Shown here: positions 14,165-20,040 of the stretch, piece after piece
How the letters are laid out: every line of letters begins with the position of its first letter
Numbering within the stretch: position 1 is the stretch's first letter
Source: Clostridiales bacterium DTU089
GTDB lineage: Bacteria; Bacillota; Clostridia; Oscillospirales; Acutalibacteraceae
DNA: 43,308 nt
Direction of reading: 5' to 3'
Assembly (NCBI GenBank): GCA_001513045.1
Contig: LFSB01000019.1
Span: 1-43,308, forward strand
The notes under the pieces: model-generated
Database searches by the model: none
Told to the model about the DNA's origin: nothing
Seen by the model: the letters and a program-made list of their open reading frames with translations, nothing else
Position numbers and translations under genes: made by a program

Positions 14165-15709
14165 ATGAAGAACGCCGAAAATCAAATTGTCAACATTATA
14201 AATTTTATACGCGGGTGTGAGCCGCGGTGTGAGGTCGATTTGAAAAAGCCTGTGTTTGAGCAGCTCAAGCTTTTAAAAAAGCACGGCTTTCGCGGAACTT
14301 TCCTTATTCAATATGATGCGCTTGTCTCTGAGGATTTCGCCGATGTTCGTGAGGAGCTCAAAGCATCCGGTCACGAAATCGGAGTGTGGCTTGAAATTGT
14401 GAAGCCTCTTGCGGAAGAAGCGGCGCTTGAATGGCGCGGAAGATACCCGTGGGATTGGCACGCTGATGTCGGCTTTTCGGTGGGCTACACTCTCGAAGAA
14501 CGCGGAAGGCTCATTGACACACTGTTTCATAAATTTAAAGAGGTTTTCGGCTATTATCCGCGTGTTATGGGCTCGTGGATTATTGACGCGCACACGCTCA
14601 AATACGCGAGCGACAAATACGGCCTTGATGCCACCTGCAACTGCAAGGACCAATGGGGAACGGACGGCTATACGCTGTGGGGCGCCTATTACAATCAGGC
14701 ATATTATCCGAGTATCAACAATGTTTTTTGCCCGGCAGGCAGCAAGAAAACTCAGATTGATGTGCCGCTGTTTCGTATGCTCGGCTCCGACCCTGTTTAT
14801 CAATATGACGCGGGGCTTGACCTCAACGACGGTGCTGCAGATATTCAGGGTGTTGTAACGCTTGAGCCTGTTTATTGCGGGAACGGCGGCGGCGGAAACC
14901 CGGAATGGGTTGATTGGTATCTCGCTGAAAACTTCAACGGAAAATGCCTTGCGTTTTCCTACACTCAGGCAGGGCAGGAAAATTCCTTCGGTTGGGACGC
15001 CATGCGCGACGGGCTCATATATCAATTTGAATGCTTTGAACAGCTCAAAAAGGATAAAAAAATAACCGTTGAAACACTCGGCGAGAGCGGCAGAAAATAT
15101 AAAGCGAAATATCCGCTTACCGTTCCGACGGCGGTAACTGCCGAAAGCGACTGGCTGGAGAGCGGCAAAAAATCCGTCTGGTACAGCTGTAAAAATTACC
15201 GCATTAACATCTTCTGCGAAGATAACACATTTTTTATCCGCGACGCGCATGTGTTTGACGATGCCTACCGTGAAAGGTATTTTGATGAGATTTGCCGTGA
15301 CCCTGTGCTTAAATTCGACAATCTGCCCTTGGTTGACGGCAATCGCTGGAGCGGCAACGGAGTGCGAGCGGGACTTTTCTTTTTGAAGGACGGAGAGACG
15401 CTTACATACACCGATATGCTTTACGAAGAGCCGGACCTCGGCACGGCAAAACTCACATTCTGCGGGACAGAATGCGGAGATGTTATTTTAATTCTCAGCG
15501 AGGACAGCGTAAGAATTACGGTGAGCCGCCCTGAAGGCTTTTCGCTTGATTTCCGGCACGGCAAAAACGCCCTTTTGCCCGAAGTCATCAGTGATAACAA
15601 CAATTACTTCGTTTTCAGGCATAACGGGTATGAATACGGAATTGAACAGTTAGTCGAATGCAAAGAAAAAGTGCTGAATATCAGCTTTACACGGATATTC
15701 AGCCGTTGA
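14165..15709 (+). CDS. Polysaccharide-deacetylase-like (NodB-barrel) glycan protein
   Basis: About 514 residues. The first half reads like a NodB/glycoside hydrolase-deacetylase barrel: FEQLKLLKKHGFRGTFLIQYDAL followed by LKASGHEIGVWLE matches the way these barrels begin (shown in two pieces). Other notable segments are DATCNCKDQWGTDGYTLWG, with two close Cys, and VYCGNGGGGNPEWVDWY. The second half is beta-rich and may be a carbohydrate-binding or sandwich domain. I could not place all metal ligands, so activity is unproven; deacetylation or hydrolysis of a polysaccharide is likely. No signal peptide. ATG at 14165 was preferred over TTG at 14138, which is almost at the transcription start; the ribosome site is weak. 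Its 3' end overlaps convergently with the res fragment. Confidence 0.65.
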   Translation: MKNAENQIVNIINFIRGCEPRCEVDLKKPVFEQLKLLKKHGFRGTFLIQYDALVSEDFADVREELKASGHEIGVWLEIVKPLAEEAALEWRGRYPWDWHADVGFSVGYTLEERGRLIDTLFHKFKEVFGYYPRVMGSWIIDAHTLKYASDKYGLDATCNCKDQWGTDGYTLWGAYYNQAYYPSINNVFCPAGSKKTQIDVPLFRMLGSDPVYQYDAGLDLNDGAADIQGVVTLEPVYCGNGGGGNPEWVDWYLAENFNGKCLAFSYTQAGQENSFGWDAMRDGLIYQFECFEQLKKDKKITVETLGESGRKYKAKYPLTVPTAVTAESDWLESGKKSVWYSCKNYRINIFCEDNTFFIRDAHVFDDAYRERYFDEICRDPVLKFDNLPLVDGNRWSGNGVRAGLFFLKDGETLTYTDMLYEEPDLGTAKLTFCGTECGDVILILSEDSVRITVSRPEGFSLDFRHGKNALLPEVISDNNNYFVFRHNGYEYGIEQLVECKEKVLNISFTRIFSR

Positions 15710-16302
15710 AACGTTTCCGGTTATACGAAGTGAGAGATACGAACGGGACAGCTCCGGAAAACAGGCTGATTTCAAGCACACCGAATTTAACACCTGTATC
15801 GTTTTCTATTTCCTTCTGAAATGTGTCGGCAAATTCGGCAAAGCTCTCATTCGCCATCACATGCAGGATATTGATGTTCTTGTCCTCGATGCGCTCACCG
15901 TCCTGATTTAAGCAAAGACGCAGACCGCGCCCTACCTTCTGACGGCAGGTAAAGGTCGATTTCTGCTCAATAAGCGTACAAACCTGAAATACATTCGGAT
16001 TGTTCCAGCCCTCTTTGAGTGCGGAATGGGAAAAGATAAAAAGCAACGGACAATCAAAGGACAACAACCATTCCTTGTCCTTCATAATTGTGTTGTATGT
16101 ATCGTAGTCGTCCAGAGTATCGCCCTTGGTATTCTTGTAGTTCCCCTTTTTATCCTGTGAAAAATAGCCGTTGTGGATATTGCTTATATCTGACGGGAAC
16201 CTGTCCCGAATCTCCGCGTATTTCGGCCTGGCAAGCAGCTCAGCATAGCATTCCTCGAACATCTGTGCATAGATACCCTTGCCGCCGTCCTCGGTGCGAT
16301 AC
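15699..16302 (-). pseudogene. Fragment of type III restriction enzyme (Res), helicase C-half
   Basis: About 200 codons matching the second RecA-like domain of type III restriction subunits: HSALKEGWNNPNVFQVC resembles motif V and RQKVGRGLRLCLNQDG motif VI (the Q-x-x-GRG-x-R signature). The frame extends upstream of its first ATG to about 16302, where it runs into a stop codon exactly at a junction with the duplicated tail sequence. The N-terminal ATPase motifs and the C-terminal nuclease domain are missing. It cannot be a working enzyme; it is one of two pieces of a broken res gene. Confidence 0.85.
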
Positions 16303-16762
16303 CGTCAACCACATTGATTTTGTTAAATTGTTCGTTCTGTTACCTCTACTTCAGTTATAATATTACGCAAACGAACACCGTCAATCAGATATTCTAAAAC
16401 CTCATCTGCGCTCTTGCACAGTTTTTCAGTGTCCTGTCTGTACGCTTCAGAAATCCCAATCTCTCCTGATAAACGTTGCGTAATGCTGTAGCTTTTTTTA
16501 TTCCAAGCAAATTCAATTTCACCACCACGTATTACACAATCTTTAAATTCACTGATTGTTTTGAAACGGTTTTCTTCAGGTGAGTTCGCCTGTACGATTG
16601 TATACATATGCTTCAACTCCTTATAGTTTTTAAATTCAGGAATATTCCCGTCAGGATAATTTATTGGTTCTCCCATATCCGGATACACAATAGGATTGTT
16701 CCATAATACTTTATGATCATGCGGATTTGTGTGACCCGTATGAGCTCTGTTGTGATCGGTCA
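16294..16762. repeat. Duplicated tail segment, copy 1
   Basis: About 470 bp closely similar to 16987-17452. Similarity starts at GTGCGATAC-GTCAACCACATT and ends near the codons for TDH-x-RAHTGHTNPHDH. It encodes the tail of the DUF4417 protein and has replaced the middle of the res gene. Divergence of the protein copies (strong at both ends, weaker in the middle) shows the duplication is not recent. Confidence 0.85.
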
Positions 16763-16916
16763 GCAGAGCATTACCCACGCCGTATTCGTTTATCAGATTA
16801 AACTGATAACCCTCAAGCGAAAAGGTGCTTGAGGGTTTCTCCTGTCCGGCAAAGATATCGACAACGGCATTGACAGCGTCGGTCTGAAAGTCTTGGCTTT
16901 TGAATTTTGGCTTCAT
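16323..16916 (-). pseudogene. Res N-terminus fused to a copied HTNPHDH tail
   Basis: The first ~50 residues (MKPKFKSQDFQTDAVNAVVD..., ending near NEYGVGNALL) look like the start of a type III restriction subunit. They then switch abruptly to DHNRAHTGHTNPHDHKVLW and continue to the end in close similarity to the last ~145 residues of the DUF4417 protein next door. The result is an in-frame chimera of about 197 residues without ATPase motifs. It could be expressed as a small tail protein, but the join is best explained as recombination debris. ATG at 16916 fits the Res N-terminus; an in-frame ATG exists at 16931. Confidence 0.7.
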
Positions 16917-16986
16917 ATATAATTCCGCCATTCGTTTTAATCAATTCTGTCTATGTACGAGTAAGCCATAAATAGAAACAAAAACA

Positions 16987-17452
16987 GTGCGATACTGTCA
17001 ACCACATTATTTTTGTTAAATTGTTCGTTCTGTTACCTCTGCTTCAGTTATAATATCCCGTAAGCGAACACCGTCAATCAGATATTCCAGTACCTCGTCA
17101 GCTGTCTGATATTTGCACTCGGTCTCGCCCTTGTGTGCCTCGTATATTACTATTCCGTCCGGATCGTGAACAATGTTGTATATCTTATTATTCCAAACAA
17201 ATTCAACCTCACCATGATATTTCATACAGCATTTAAAATCACTGATTGTTTTGAAACGGTTTTCCTCCGGCGAGTTTGCCTGTACTCTGGTATACATACT
17301 CTTTAACCCCTTATAGTTTTTAAATTCAGGAATATTCCCGTCAGGATAATTTATTGATTCTCCCATATCCGGATGCACAACAGGATTATTCCATAATACT
17401 TTATGATCATGCGGATTTGTGTGACCTGTATGAGCTCTGTGGTGATCTGTCA
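16987..17452. repeat. Duplicated tail segment, copy 2
   Basis: The presumed parent copy, forming the 3' part of the DUF4417 gene; see copy 1 at 16294-16762. The two copies are in the same orientation, about 693 bp apart. Confidence 0.85.
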
Positions 17453-18386
17453 AATGTCGTTCCATTATTGCTCTGCCATCTATGCCGATTTTTGTTAAAT
17501 ATCTTTCGCCGTTTGGCTTAATATATTCTTTTATTTCTCCCGGCTTGCCTAAAAAGCGCTCATCTGCTGTTTTTTTCGGCTGCCACTTTCCTCCGTATGC
17601 GCTGCCCATACCTTTCCCGTCGCTGTATGGTGCAATCCATCCACTTTTAATTACAAGATTGCTGCCGGTTGGCAACGGCTGTTCTCCGCAAATGTATTTT
17701 GCAAACTTTGACGGAATATAGTCGTCATTCTGGTATTTCCACGATGACAGCTCGTAATCGACATACACAATGTTTCCTTCCATTTCGGGAAACGGATTGT
17801 TATAGCAAATAATCCGCTCAGGCTCAATTGCCTTGAGCATCTCATTGTACCCTTTAAGGAAAAAATCCTTCTGGTCGGCATGGTTGTTGTGTGCTGAAAC
17901 CATATAGGTAGATACCGCAACGGTACTGCCTTTCGGGATACCCGAAAAACAATAATCAAAGGTATTCTCATCACCCCAGCTAACCGTCGGTATAACTCTG
18001 ATACCCTTTGAAGCAAAATATGCCCCGCACCATCGGTTGCGAAAGGTATTGTATAACTGTATTGTGGGGTTCATTTCACGGTACATACTAAAATCCGGCG
18101 ACAAAACCGCTTTATAACGCTTTAATTTTTCAATATCAGTGTCGGGATTCTTCCACACCTTCTCAAATTTGTAGTCGTACAAAAAGAAGTGCACCATACG
18201 GTCGAGATGATTTGTGTTTTCAAGACTTGTTCGGTCAAATCCCAACAAAAGCAAATTATTAAATTCTTCAGCCGTGAATGTCGCCTTGGGAATATCCGGA
18301 ATTTTGAAGGGGTCTGCGCTTTTGCCGTCAAATTGATTGCGTAGCAGAAACGGACTTGTTCGGTAATTGTAGTTTTCTTCGGTCAT
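17016..18386 (-). CDS. DUF4417 protein with His-rich C-terminal tail
   Basis: About 456 residues. Residues 40-240 resemble DUF4417, a family seen mainly in prophages and integrative elements (GIRVIPTVSWGDENTFDYCF, then STYMVSAHNNHADQKDFFLKG). After a linker with GKPGEIKEY and NGERYLTKIGIDGRAIMERH comes HLTDHHRAHTGHTNPHDH, a motif reminiscent of tails on phage head and polymorphic-toxin proteins, possibly a nuclease or metal site. The last 120 residues are unrecognised and are duplicated in the neighbouring gene. Start at 18386 was chosen because GGGAG lies eight bases upstream. The region is visibly richer in A+T than its surroundings, a sign of transfer. Function unknown. Confidence 0.7.
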   Translation of the reverse strand: MTEENYNYRTSPFLLRNQFDGKSADPFKIPDIPKATFTAEEFNNLLLLGFDRTSLENTNHLDRMVHFFLYDYKFEKVWKNPDTDIEKLKRYKAVLSPDFSMYREMNPTIQLYNTFRNRWCGAYFASKGIRVIPTVSWGDENTFDYCFSGIPKGSTVAVSTYMVSAHNNHADQKDFFLKGYNEMLKAIEPERIICYNNPFPEMEGNIVYVDYELSSWKYQNDDYIPSKFAKYICGEQPLPTGSNLVIKSGWIAPYSDGKGMGSAYGGKWQPKKTADERFLGKPGEIKEYIKPNGERYLTKIGIDGRAIMERHLTDHHRAHTGHTNPHDHKVLWNNPVVHPDMGESINYPDGNIPEFKNYKGLKSMYTRVQANSPEENRFKTISDFKCCMKYHGEVEFVWNNKIYNIVHDPDGIVIYEAHKGETECKYQTADEVLEYLIDGVRLRDIITEAEVTERTI

Positions 18387-18504
18387 TTTTATTTCTCCCA
18401 TTATGATGATAAGGACAAAGTCCTCTCACTAATAGGGTAAAACAACAGCATTTGTTGCACAAAACGGGGCAACATAATTGCAGTGTTAACAGAAAATTTA
18501 CACC

Positions 18505-18924
18505 TCACACTAATTTCAGTTCAATCCGTCTGTCGCGCAGGATATAATGAGCGTTGCTCATGGCGGTATCGTCTGCGAGAGCACTTTCGGCAAGGATTAT
18601 TTTAGCAGGCGCATAATCTGCCATAGCTTCAATATTCTCAGTTGTGATATTTTCTGCAAGGCAAATCAGAAGCAGGCAATCCTCGCCTACTGAATAGGCT
18701 GTAACACCGTCAATATCAATCTTTTTAACCGTATATGTCAGCGGAACACCCCACTTGAGCATAATTTCACAGACTATATAGGTACGGTCGACTTTGACAT
18801 TATGTATCATAGAATTCATACGGTCATACAGTGACAGCATATTTTCCTCAGCGACTGGAGTACCATCCCATGCGTGGAGGTTTGAAGAATCCAGTTTGAA
18901 TACACGGAAGCCGTATACAATTTC
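18505..18924 (-). pseudogene. Fragment of type III DNA methyltransferase (Mod), C-terminus
   Basis: About 140 codons that read like the end of a site-specific adenine methyltransferase of type III systems: GFRVFKLDSSNLHAWDGTP, then KWGVPLTYTVKKIDIDG and ILAESALADDTAMSNAHYIL. The frame is open upstream of its first ATG (18840) to about 18924 and then joins unrelated sequence. The catalytic DPPY and FxG motifs are absent. In normal loci mod precedes res, and here the order mod remnant, DUF4417, res remnants on one strand preserves that. Confidence 0.7.
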
Positions 18925-19416: not shown

Positions 19417-19503
19417 TGGTGCGGATAACAGGAATTGAACCTGCATGAGGGAATCCTCACTAGAACCTGAATCTAGCGCGTCTGCCAGTTCCGCCATATC
19501 CGC
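19417..19503 (-). tRNA. tRNA-Leu (anticodon CAG)
   Basis: A complete 87-nt class II tRNA with encoded CCA. The acceptor stem begins GCGGATA and pairs with the 3' TATCCGC. The anticodon stem CTAGA/TCTAG encloses TTCAGGT, giving anticodon CAG. The variable arm is GTGAGGATTCCCTCATG. Its 5' half (to the anticodon loop) is repeated at 19956-19993, and the S23 element lies between that copy and this gene. The usual promoter stands upstream of the distant copy, not directly before this gene, so expression may depend on a longer transcript. Confidence 0.95.
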
Positions 19504-19507
19504 ATAT
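19466..19507. repeat. 42-bp direct repeat, copy within intact tRNA-Leu
   Basis: This 42-bp sequence is identical to 19956-19997. It covers tRNA positions 1-38 (through the anticodon-loop CAGG) and four bases upstream. The two copies are 490 bp apart and bracket the S23 element. Confidence 0.95.
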
Positions 19508-19519
19508 AAATAATGCAGA

Positions 19520-19541
19520 ATGCAAAGTGCATAATGCAGAA
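19520..19541. repeat. Terminal inverted repeat of S23 element, left
   Basis: This 22-bp sequence, rich in TGCA/TGCAT, matches the reverse complement of 19908-19929 at 19 of 22 positions. It directly abuts the S23 stop codon. Confidence 0.65.
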
Positions 19542-19889
19542 TTATTTGTTTGAAGATTTACATATAGAAACGAGAAGTTTAATGATCTCGGTAATATCGG
19601 TTTCTAAGCTTAAAAACTGAAGTTCTGTTATATAGTCCGTTTTATAAAGAAGCTTTATCCAATAATAAGATTCATTTGCTTCTTTGAGCGCTATACTCAT
19701 TTTTGATATAAAATCAGCTTTGCTTTGTCCACGCTGAGCTTCTGAAACATTTGCACCGATACTCGTGCCGGAACGAAGCAACTGCTTTGAAAGAACATAC
19801 TCTTTCTTTTCGCTGTTCAGGTGTTTATACAAGTTAACGATTCTAACCGCAAAATCAAAGCTTTTATTTTCAATCTGATTTTCAGCCAT
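19542..19889 (-). CDS. S23/four-helix-bundle protein (IVS/Avd-like)
   Basis: A 115-residue, all-helical protein. The family signature is visible in FAVRIVNLYKHLN, then LLRSGTSIGANVSEAQRGQSKADFI (in part: GTSIGANVSEAQRG) and KEANESYYWIKLL. Such proteins are encoded in 23S rRNA intervening sequences and are related to the Avd accessory protein of diversity-generating retroelements; they bind nucleic acid. ATG 19889 is chosen because CGAGGAACGG precedes it, while the ATG at 19922 lies inside the inverted repeat. It is the only gene of the element within tRNA-Leu(CAG). No reverse transcriptase is nearby. Confidence 0.9.
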   Translation of the reverse strand: MAENQIENKSFDFAVRIVNLYKHLNSEKKEYVLSKQLLRSGTSIGANVSEAQRGQSKADFISKMSIALKEANESYYWIKLLYKTDYITELQFLSLETDITEIIKLLVSICKSSNK

Positions 19890-19907
19890 ACCGTTCCTCG
19901 TTTTGCA

Positions 19908-19929
19908 TTTTGCATTAAGCACTATGCAT
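19908..19929. repeat. Terminal inverted repeat of S23 element, right
   Basis: Partner of 19520-19541 in inverted orientation, with three mismatches. Confidence 0.65.
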
Positions 19930-19930
19930 T

Positions 19931-19952
19931 TGTATCCTCCGCAGAGGATACA
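19931..19952 (-). other. Perfect hairpin directly after the tRNA 5' half
   Basis: The 9-bp arms TGTATCCTC and GAGGATACA enclose a CGCA tetraloop. It lies four bases from the truncated tRNA half and before the S23 gene. It could cap or terminate the short tRNA-half transcript (no U-tract follows), or be a recognition site for the element. Confidence 0.8.
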
Positions 19953-19955
19953 CTC

Positions 19956-19993
19956 CCTGAATCTAGCGCGTCTGCCAGTTCCGCCATATCCGC
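19956..19993 (-). pseudogene. 5' half of tRNA-Leu(CAG), truncated at the anticodon loop
   Basis: Identical to the first 38 bases of the intact tRNA at 19503, ending with TTCAGG, and then replaced by GAGTG and the hairpin. It is the copy that sits behind the tRNA promoter. The 42-bp direct repeat containing it runs 19956-19997. Confidence 0.95.
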
Positions 19994-20011
19994 ATATTTA
20001 GTGCGAGAAAA

Positions 20012-20040
20012 AGGATATCAAAAAAAGCGGGAAATGTCAA
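20012..20040 (-). promoter_or_regulatory. Promoter upstream of the tRNA-Leu half
   Basis: On the minus strand TTGACA (20035-20040), 17 bp, TATCCT (20012-20017). It lies 18 bp before the truncated tRNA copy, as expected for the original tRNA promoter now separated from the intact gene by 490 bp. Confidence 0.75.

Follow-up and report, generated by a model that had tools for sequence, protein, structure and literature searches.

S23 proteins are encoded by intervening sequences (IVS) in 23S rRNA, with cases in Leptospira and Coxiella described in a paper on the Coxiella IVS (PMC4990558). There the IVS has inverted repeats, sits inside a stable-RNA transcript and is thought to be horizontally acquired; its function, its origin, its mode of spread and the role of S23 are called unclear, and the text nowhere uses the term tRNA. 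tRNA genes are targets of insertion in other systems. In tRNA-dependent lysogeny (PMC10865867), an element integrates in a tRNA gene at a short common core from which the tRNA is not restored, and brings a tRNA of the same kind; the enzymes described there are tyrosine integrases from phages of actinobacteria. Genomic islands that sit in tRNA genes (Islander, PMC4383910) split their target, with the displaced fragment at one end and the regenerated target at the other.

Here we analyse a locus where an S23 gene lies between a half tRNA gene and an intact one. The window, that is, the whole stretch of DNA analysed, comprises 43,308 nucleotides of Clostridiales bacterium DTU089 (contig LFSB01000019.1; genome G000 below).

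Results

Layout of the locus

All features of the locus lie on the minus strand. An intact tRNA-Leu(CAG) gene occupies 19417..19503 (Rfam tRNA match, 53.8 bits), and its first 38 nt, together with four leader bases, are present twice as a 42-nt direct repeat. The right copy (19466..19507) runs on into the intact tRNA, while the left copy (19956..19997), in which no tRNA was called, holds the 5′ half of a tRNA-Leu (nt 1–38, 19956..19993). The copies are 100% identical and their starts are 490 apart. Between them lie 448 bp (19508–19955), whose gene content is a single S23 / 23S rRNA intervening-sequence protein gene of 115 aa at 19542..19889 (PF05635, 102.3 bits against a curated cut-off of 33.8, E 2e-29). 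The initial annotation, made from the letters of the window, had reported the identical repeats, their make-up of 38 tRNA bases plus four upstream, the intact tRNA on one side and the half on the other, and a 448-bp unit encoding S23 only, and was exact on each of these points. It had also stated that no recombinase is present, in agreement with our search of the window, which found none by eye among ORFs of at least 130 aa and none matching two serine recombinase queries.

Read in the tRNA sense, the order is a promoter-like sequence (20040–20012), four leader bases and the tRNA-Leu 5′ half, a perfect 9-bp hairpin (TGTATCCTC-loop-GAGGATACA, 19931..19952), the left inverted-repeat arm of the S23 unit (19904..19931, limits by eye), the S23 gene, the right arm (19508..19547, of TGCATTATGC-type short repeats, overlapping the S23 stop; outer limits by eye), four leader bases and the intact tRNA-Leu. 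The sequence just past the anticodon-loop junction of the half (19937..19955) is attachment-arm-like (P′), a weak match to the family motif TAACGCCACCTCGGTGTAA described below. The predicted promoter upstream of the half (TTGACA-17-TATCCT, 20012..20040) is sigma-70-like with two mismatches to consensus, a match equalled by 8% of shuffles. A promoter with at most two mismatches was found in the 220 nt before S23 at 7 of the 15 loci where S23 precedes tRNA-Leu, compared with 7% of shuffles and 12 of 75 S23 loci not at tRNAs. At the gathering threshold the RNA families of the window are two tRNAs only, with no rRNA, placing the S23 unit in the tRNA-Leu leader and not in a 23S or 16S rRNA gene; this result also rules out a known RNA family spanning the unit.

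A solved relative of the S23 protein is an uncharacterized protein (2rld_A, E 5e-41). Substitution rates were estimated by the NG86 method for five pairs, one of which gave no defined dS. The window protein and its nearest relative, L140, differ with dN 0.095 and dS 2.7 (saturated), and the pair L141/L142 with dN 0.041 and dS 0.76. With dN far below dS, the frame looks functional.

On the other side of the tRNA, downstream, lies a DUF4417 gene (17016–18401, minus strand), a partial copy of whose C-terminal part is found at 16323–16931. The surrounding region, 15699–18840 (minus strand), contains pieces that we take to resemble type III restriction-modification genes, which suggests a decayed mobile or defence region. 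Homologues of its ORF 18505–18840 (59–68% identity) lie near non-tRNA S23 genes in L177, L206 and L211.

S23 genes recur at tRNA genes

S23 relatives were detected in 20 of the 22 genomes of the genus (E 1e-4), with up to 11 matches per genome. Our sample consists of 164 distinct loci after de-duplication, chosen by similarity to the window protein from the part of the matches that was fetched, so that the proportions given here are those of the sample and not of the family. Two settings involve tRNA genes. In setting A, S23 lies 35–64 nt upstream of a tRNA-Leu gene on the same strand; this is the case at 15 of the 164 loci (6 CAG, 9 TAG). The initial annotation had proposed such a search for S23 genes close to tRNA genes in other genomes. 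Every one of the 15 belongs to the 92 loci that score 120 bits or more against the window protein; the other 72 contain none. In setting B, the S23 gene follows a tRNA gene of the same orientation at a distance of up to 420 nt (about 145–420), and the tRNAs are of many isotypes; 38 of the 39 such loci fall among the 72 lower-scoring ones. Neither setting applies to 109 loci, and 149 of the 164 lie elsewhere than before tRNA-Leu. The orientation is nearly invariant, 70 of the 71 tRNAs within 600 nt of an S23 gene being on the S23 strand. Apart from tRNA-Leu, only one tRNA, for Ala, follows an S23 gene in the same orientation at up to 600 nt (L043, a setting B locus).

The S23 protein tree was built from 128 of the 164 proteins (at least 95 bits and 100 aa, no internal stop), with 14 of the 15 tRNA-Leu loci included. 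The tRNA-Leu label requires eight changes on this tree, of which starred branches force five or more; shuffles need 13.5 on average. The label is thus clustered, yet the seat has been gained or lost several times. The association between S23 and tRNA-Leu is real and no accident, and involves several S23 lineages. That S23 genes lie at random sites only is ruled out by the recurrent same-strand seat at tRNA-Leu(CAG/TAG).

Setting B has features of its own. Its S23 genes (for example G000:C50:90005–90313, locus L002; also L019, L042, L060, L065, L068, L071, L110 and L128) stand behind a terminator-like hairpin and often also an array of short hairpins that includes Gut-1, an sRNA family. The Rfam Gut-1 RNA (RF01706) matched in 5 of 37 scanned loci, in all five between the tRNA and S23 by position (L002:1969–2042, L065:1966–2039, L068:1967–2039, L071:1909–1981 and L128:585–660, all on the minus strand), and L071 has a second match behind S23 (699–769, also minus). 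L065 and L071, from different genomes, are almost alike in their terminator, their hairpin array and the start of S23, after tRNA-Arg(CCG) and tRNA-Leu(CAA) respectively, and by eye the common sequence starts directly behind the CCA end. At L047, L050, L053, L065 and L070 a further reading frame begins at the S23 stop, again by eye.

S23 units have complementary arms

Imperfect inverted repeats enclose the S23 gene in setting A. They are composed of short repeats, whose sequence varies by locus while complementarity is kept within each locus. The arms were assessed at 163 of the 164 loci. For 16 loci, including the setting B locus L043, the median duplex energy of the arms was −60 kcal/mol, compared with −34 for arms mispaired across loci and −41 for shuffled arms, and 75% of the 16 lay below the 5% line of either control. 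The window is typical, its S23 gene being flanked by complementary terminal repeats with a duplex energy of −59.4 kcal/mol. The arms are less uniform at the 76 loci of at least 120 bits that are in neither setting (median −50, half of them below the 5% line of the shuffles). The upstream neighbour of these loci has the same direction in 62 of the 73 cases where it was called, a raw count with no background rate. The single-strand fold of the whole window unit is stable (z −4.65), but in the minimum-energy structure the left arm folds back on itself, so that this fold does not prove a long stem.

Half tRNA-Leu genes occur without S23

Halves of tRNA-Leu with the same anticodon-loop cut are also found without S23, both in the genus of the window (G007, G010, G013, G016 and G018) and in other genera. 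In G007, G010 and G013 the 5′ half stands before an intact tRNA-Leu, and in G018 it forms a tandem array that runs to the contig end, with no S23 between; the halves of these four genomes are joined to a common sequence of about 78 nt. Of the 22 tRNA-Leu(CAG/TAG) genes scanned in the genus, 21 are without S23. Six of these 21 are preceded by a 5′ fragment 10 nt or longer (38, 38, 22, 22, 14 and 10 nt), while a seventh (L095) has a diverged half. Fragments starting from tRNA position 1 are rare by chance, those of at least 10 nt arising in 0 of 440 shuffled upstream regions and those of at least 9 nt in 1.6%. Fragments accompany 6 of the 15 S23-bearing tRNA-Leu loci (6 of the 14 measurable by a similar measure), so that the rate is about equal with S23, in a wide sample, and without it, in the window's own genus. 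The S23-side fragments, leader included, measure 45, 42, 39, 23, 19 and 14 nt. The initial annotation had suggested looking for the duplication at other copies: the fragments are of graded length, and nine of the 15 loci have no clear fragment.

These observations separate two parts of the original proposal of a tRNA-targeting S23 element. The association with tRNA-Leu stands, being found at 15 of 164 loci; that S23 makes the duplication is unsupported in view of the halves without S23. Target-site duplication by S23 as the sole cause is ruled out by such halves in genus and family, and left fragments that vary from 45 to 0 nt rule out a fixed 42-bp recombination core belonging to the S23 unit itself. 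The initial annotation had named half tRNAs lacking S23 in relatives as the finding that would speak against it; they exist in related species, although not at the window's own locus.

In another explanation the S23 unit moved by itself, or through a host enzyme, and its insertion produced a long and variable target-site duplication from near the tRNA 5′ end, in the style of target-primed reverse transcription. The geometry of the six fragment loci agrees with this, their right edge falling close to the start of the tRNA (+1 to −7) and their left edge 9 to 39 nt into the tRNA. Avd, a relative of S23, works with reverse transcriptases in diversity-generating retroelements, a role that also fits. 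However, the longest duplications end at a position common to S23-less insertions, and no reverse transcriptase (PF00078) match was found in G000 (95.6% complete). We consider this mode of insertion improbable.

The empty site that the initial annotation suggested seeking in relatives was not recovered: no S23-free allele of the window locus was present among the fetched loci, in which no homologue of the window's DUF896 gene, and nothing resembling the 600 bases upstream of the half, occurs outside the window's contig. In G001, of the same genus, a tRNA-Leu(CAG) 99% identical over 91 nt has no S23 and is directly preceded by a right-arm-like sequence and a TTGACT-17-TATAAT box, with flanks otherwise unlike those of the window. 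On this resemblance we read the G001 locus as a putative site that lost its S23. Upstream of tRNA-Leu in L077, L083 and L092 there is a different insert, a 12–22 nt tRNA-Leu fragment followed by a common sequence that ends near CCGCAAGAGTCCTTCCC and is perhaps a structured RNA.

The halves adjoin a conserved arm

The halves end in the anticodon loop, mostly at TTYAGG, and are followed by a conserved arm of about 19 nt with consensus TAACGCCACCTCGGTGTAA (P′). When 398 genomes of the family were scanned for the half plus this arm, the pattern gave 29 matches in 21 genomes, and the reversed pattern none. After five matches that look like intact tRNAs by their letters were dropped, 24 junctions in 16 genomes of 11 genera were kept, one of which is the S23 locus of G255; the pattern misses diverged junctions (the window at 3 mismatches, G007, G010 and G016), so the count is not exhaustive. 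The scan shows that the half with its arm recurs without S23.

An opposite arm (P), such as CAGGTGGTGTTACC-GTTAGG, precedes 3′ halves of tRNA-Leu in G013 (two), G017, G020 and G171. The P arm of G171 and that genome's own P′ arm, GGTAACGTCACCT, are exact reverse complements. A scan for the P arm gave six matches against three for the reversed control; four of the six are of the tRNA-Leu 3′-half kind, and those in G083 and G217 were set aside as lying inside ORFs. Together the two arms have the anatomy of an attachment site, and a palindromic site split by integration at TTAGG accounts for both the P′ and the P arms. In the window's own genome a partner attR (P arm plus tRNA 3′ half) was not found at up to 3 mismatches (95.6% complete, 59 contigs).

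At the window junction, GGGAGTGTATCCTCTGCGGAG, the arm profile scores 6.16, a value reached by 0.09% of the window's GG-anchored 21-mers and a weak P′ match. For comparison, L104 scores 5.9, L141, from Ruminococcus sp. zg-924, scores 18.3 (a clear match), and S23-less junctions of the window's own genus, left out of the profile, score 4.4–7.3. The shorter S23-side fragments of L140, L142 and L207 have no P′ arm.

Recombinase genes were seen as neighbours at four loci only. Full-length serine recombinases with Resolvase, Recombinase and zinc-ribbon domains adjoin tRNA-Leu in G204 and G029; G007 has a recombinase remnant, a frame running to the contig end (L134:4849–4397) that is 46% identical to residues 378–528 of the G204 enzyme and whose 124-aa ORF has no Pfam match; and in G010 a recombinase lies about 3.7 kb from the tRNA-Leu locus. 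The window's own genome has 11 matches to the Recombinase domain (PF07508), none of them on the window contig; at the six loci fetched, identity to the G204 enzyme reaches at most 32%. Serine recombinase genes are also found near a tRNA-Leu(CAA) in G000 (L297, C3 near 122618).

S23 as possible cargo of the integrated unit

A full half is present at 3 of the 15 S23–tRNA-Leu loci (the window, L104 and L141), compared with a junction in 16 of the 398 family genomes. The full junction being rarer family-wide than in S23 loci, some link between S23 and the half is possible, and this lowered our estimate for separate origins of the two and raised that for a common one. In the latter case a cassette lacking a recombinase would integrate in the anticodon loop of tRNA-Leu with the S23 unit as its cargo, the cassette's own tRNA 5′ half would rebuild the target, and the left half would later decay. 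The three full halves end at nt 38/39 and pass into a P′-like arm, which by eye the S23 arm abuts directly, and each is identical to the intact tRNA through nt 38. Such identity and abutting arms suit S23 as cargo of an integrated unit. Left fragments graded from 45 nt down to none would be the expected trace of decay, and other cargoes occupy the same position in other genomes, as described below. Against this explanation, a clear half is absent from nine of the 15 loci, many non-tRNA sites carry S23 genes of the same similarity class, fragments are about equally frequent at S23-less leaders of the genus, and three shorter S23-side fragments are without the P′ arm. We regard it as possible, at a confidence well short of even.

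No distinct element-borne tRNA is present in the window, where the half agrees with the intact tRNA at every position up to nt 38. Of 18 S23-less loci, 16 have one or more halves with 2–15 differences from the last copy, a comparison in which L284 (G098) differs only by a truncated half and L255 (G018) has no intact copy in its contig. Halves that differ from the last copy are expected if the element often brings its own tRNA-Leu.

Halves form cassette-like arrays

The halves also flank other genes. A gene that we take from its sequence to be flavodoxin-like lies between halves in G051 and G316 and behind a degenerate half in G365 and G405, and other cargo between halves includes a 220-aa ORF (G098, G381) and a 236-aa ORF (G356), neither with a Pfam match where scanned (G098, G356). 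Gene-less units between halves measure 122, about 160, and 204 nt. The arrays end before an intact tRNA-Leu or at a contig end, and comprise tandem halves with units of about 160–180 nt in L236 (G255 C34) and 122 nt in L255 (G018), as well as gene-bearing units in L284 (G098) and L253 (G381). In G098 a 204-nt unit is followed by the 220-aa-ORF unit, and in G381, another species, the order is reversed; the common units are 95.5% (247 nt) and 96.2% (862 nt) identical, respectively.

Unequal recombination or simple tandem duplication at the tRNA gene, without any site-specific step, could in principle produce repeated units of this kind and catch S23 between them. The half-tRNA arrays of G018 and G255 are of the form that such events would produce, and in L142 the arm and tRNA start are duplicated together. 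Conservation of the junction position and of the arm that follows it over 11 genera with different contents, together with the existence of a complementary P arm, argues the other way, and we think this origin very improbable.

The opposite unit order in G098 and G381 most invites a reading in terms of tRNA-Leu cassettes. According to it, the 5′ half of tRNA-Leu(CAG/TAG) and the palindromic arm of about 19 nt would together be the recombination site of small recombinase-free units in the window's family, carrying S23, flavodoxin-like genes, genes of unknown family or no gene. The units would insert serially in the anticodon loop, with a functional tRNA present after every insertion, and their order could change, with a serine recombinase acting in trans; the window S23 unit would be one such cassette, driven by the tRNA promoter. 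We put this general system forward tentatively and, taken as a whole, think it unlikely.

Discussion

The link between S23 and tRNA genes is real and was not met with in the literature searched, while the causal reading first given to it is partly wrong. Among the listed titles and abstract beginnings from the open-licence literature there was no description of S23 at tRNA genes, which is weak evidence of novelty.

The explanation that we prefer, with about even confidence, has two layers: an IVS-like S23 unit fills the leader of tRNA-Leu(CAG), and next to it is an attL-like scar that was left by a different element and is not a product of S23. On this explanation, S23 between its imperfect inverted-repeat arms would occupy the 5′ leader, and transcription would proceed from the tRNA promoter, probably in the order promoter, half tRNA, S23, tRNA, with RNase P presumably freeing the finished tRNA from the precursor. 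The tRNA-Leu leader may then be a harmless seat, like that of the S23-bearing intervening sequences in 23S rRNA. The half tRNA would be the left junction of a site-specific integration into the tRNA-Leu anticodon loop by the other element, whose enzyme was probably a large serine recombinase or similar. The order of these events in the window is our reconstruction.

Multicopy S23 units with two tRNA-linked seats in one genus, before tRNA-Leu(CAG/TAG) and behind many other tRNAs, offer a testable system for movement, for expression from tRNA promoters and for processing. The half-tRNA arrays represent repeated integration at the anticodon loop of one tRNA whose function is kept or replaced. A more general caution is that a duplicated tRNA end beside a gene need not be that gene's product.

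How does the locus compare with known systems? With the rRNA IVS, the window unit shares a PF05635 protein, inverted repeats and a seat in a stable-RNA transcript; it differs in that the host RNA is a tRNA-Leu leader with a tRNA duplication beside it, although 9 of the 15 such loci have no clear duplication. The S23-less half loci, where in 16 of 18 a half differs from the last copy, recall tRNA-dependent lysogeny as described above. Here, however, the neighbouring enzymes seen are serine recombinases, the hosts come from the same family and order as Ruminococcus sp. zg-924 (G255), and the window half and intact tRNA are identical.

Cis-mobilizable elements are recombinase-free passengers flanked by attachment sites. 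With these, and with islands in tRNA genes, the locus shares a split target with a fragment at one end and a regenerated tRNA at the other; it differs in that the window unit is only 448 bp long, its fragment is a 5′ half and it has no recombinase inside. Integron gene cassettes are single-gene or gene-less units between repeated sites. The different order of units in G098 and G381 resembles them in layout, but the repeated site here is the 5′ half of a tRNA gene. If the units truly reorder, they would constitute a tRNA-based relative of gene cassettes.
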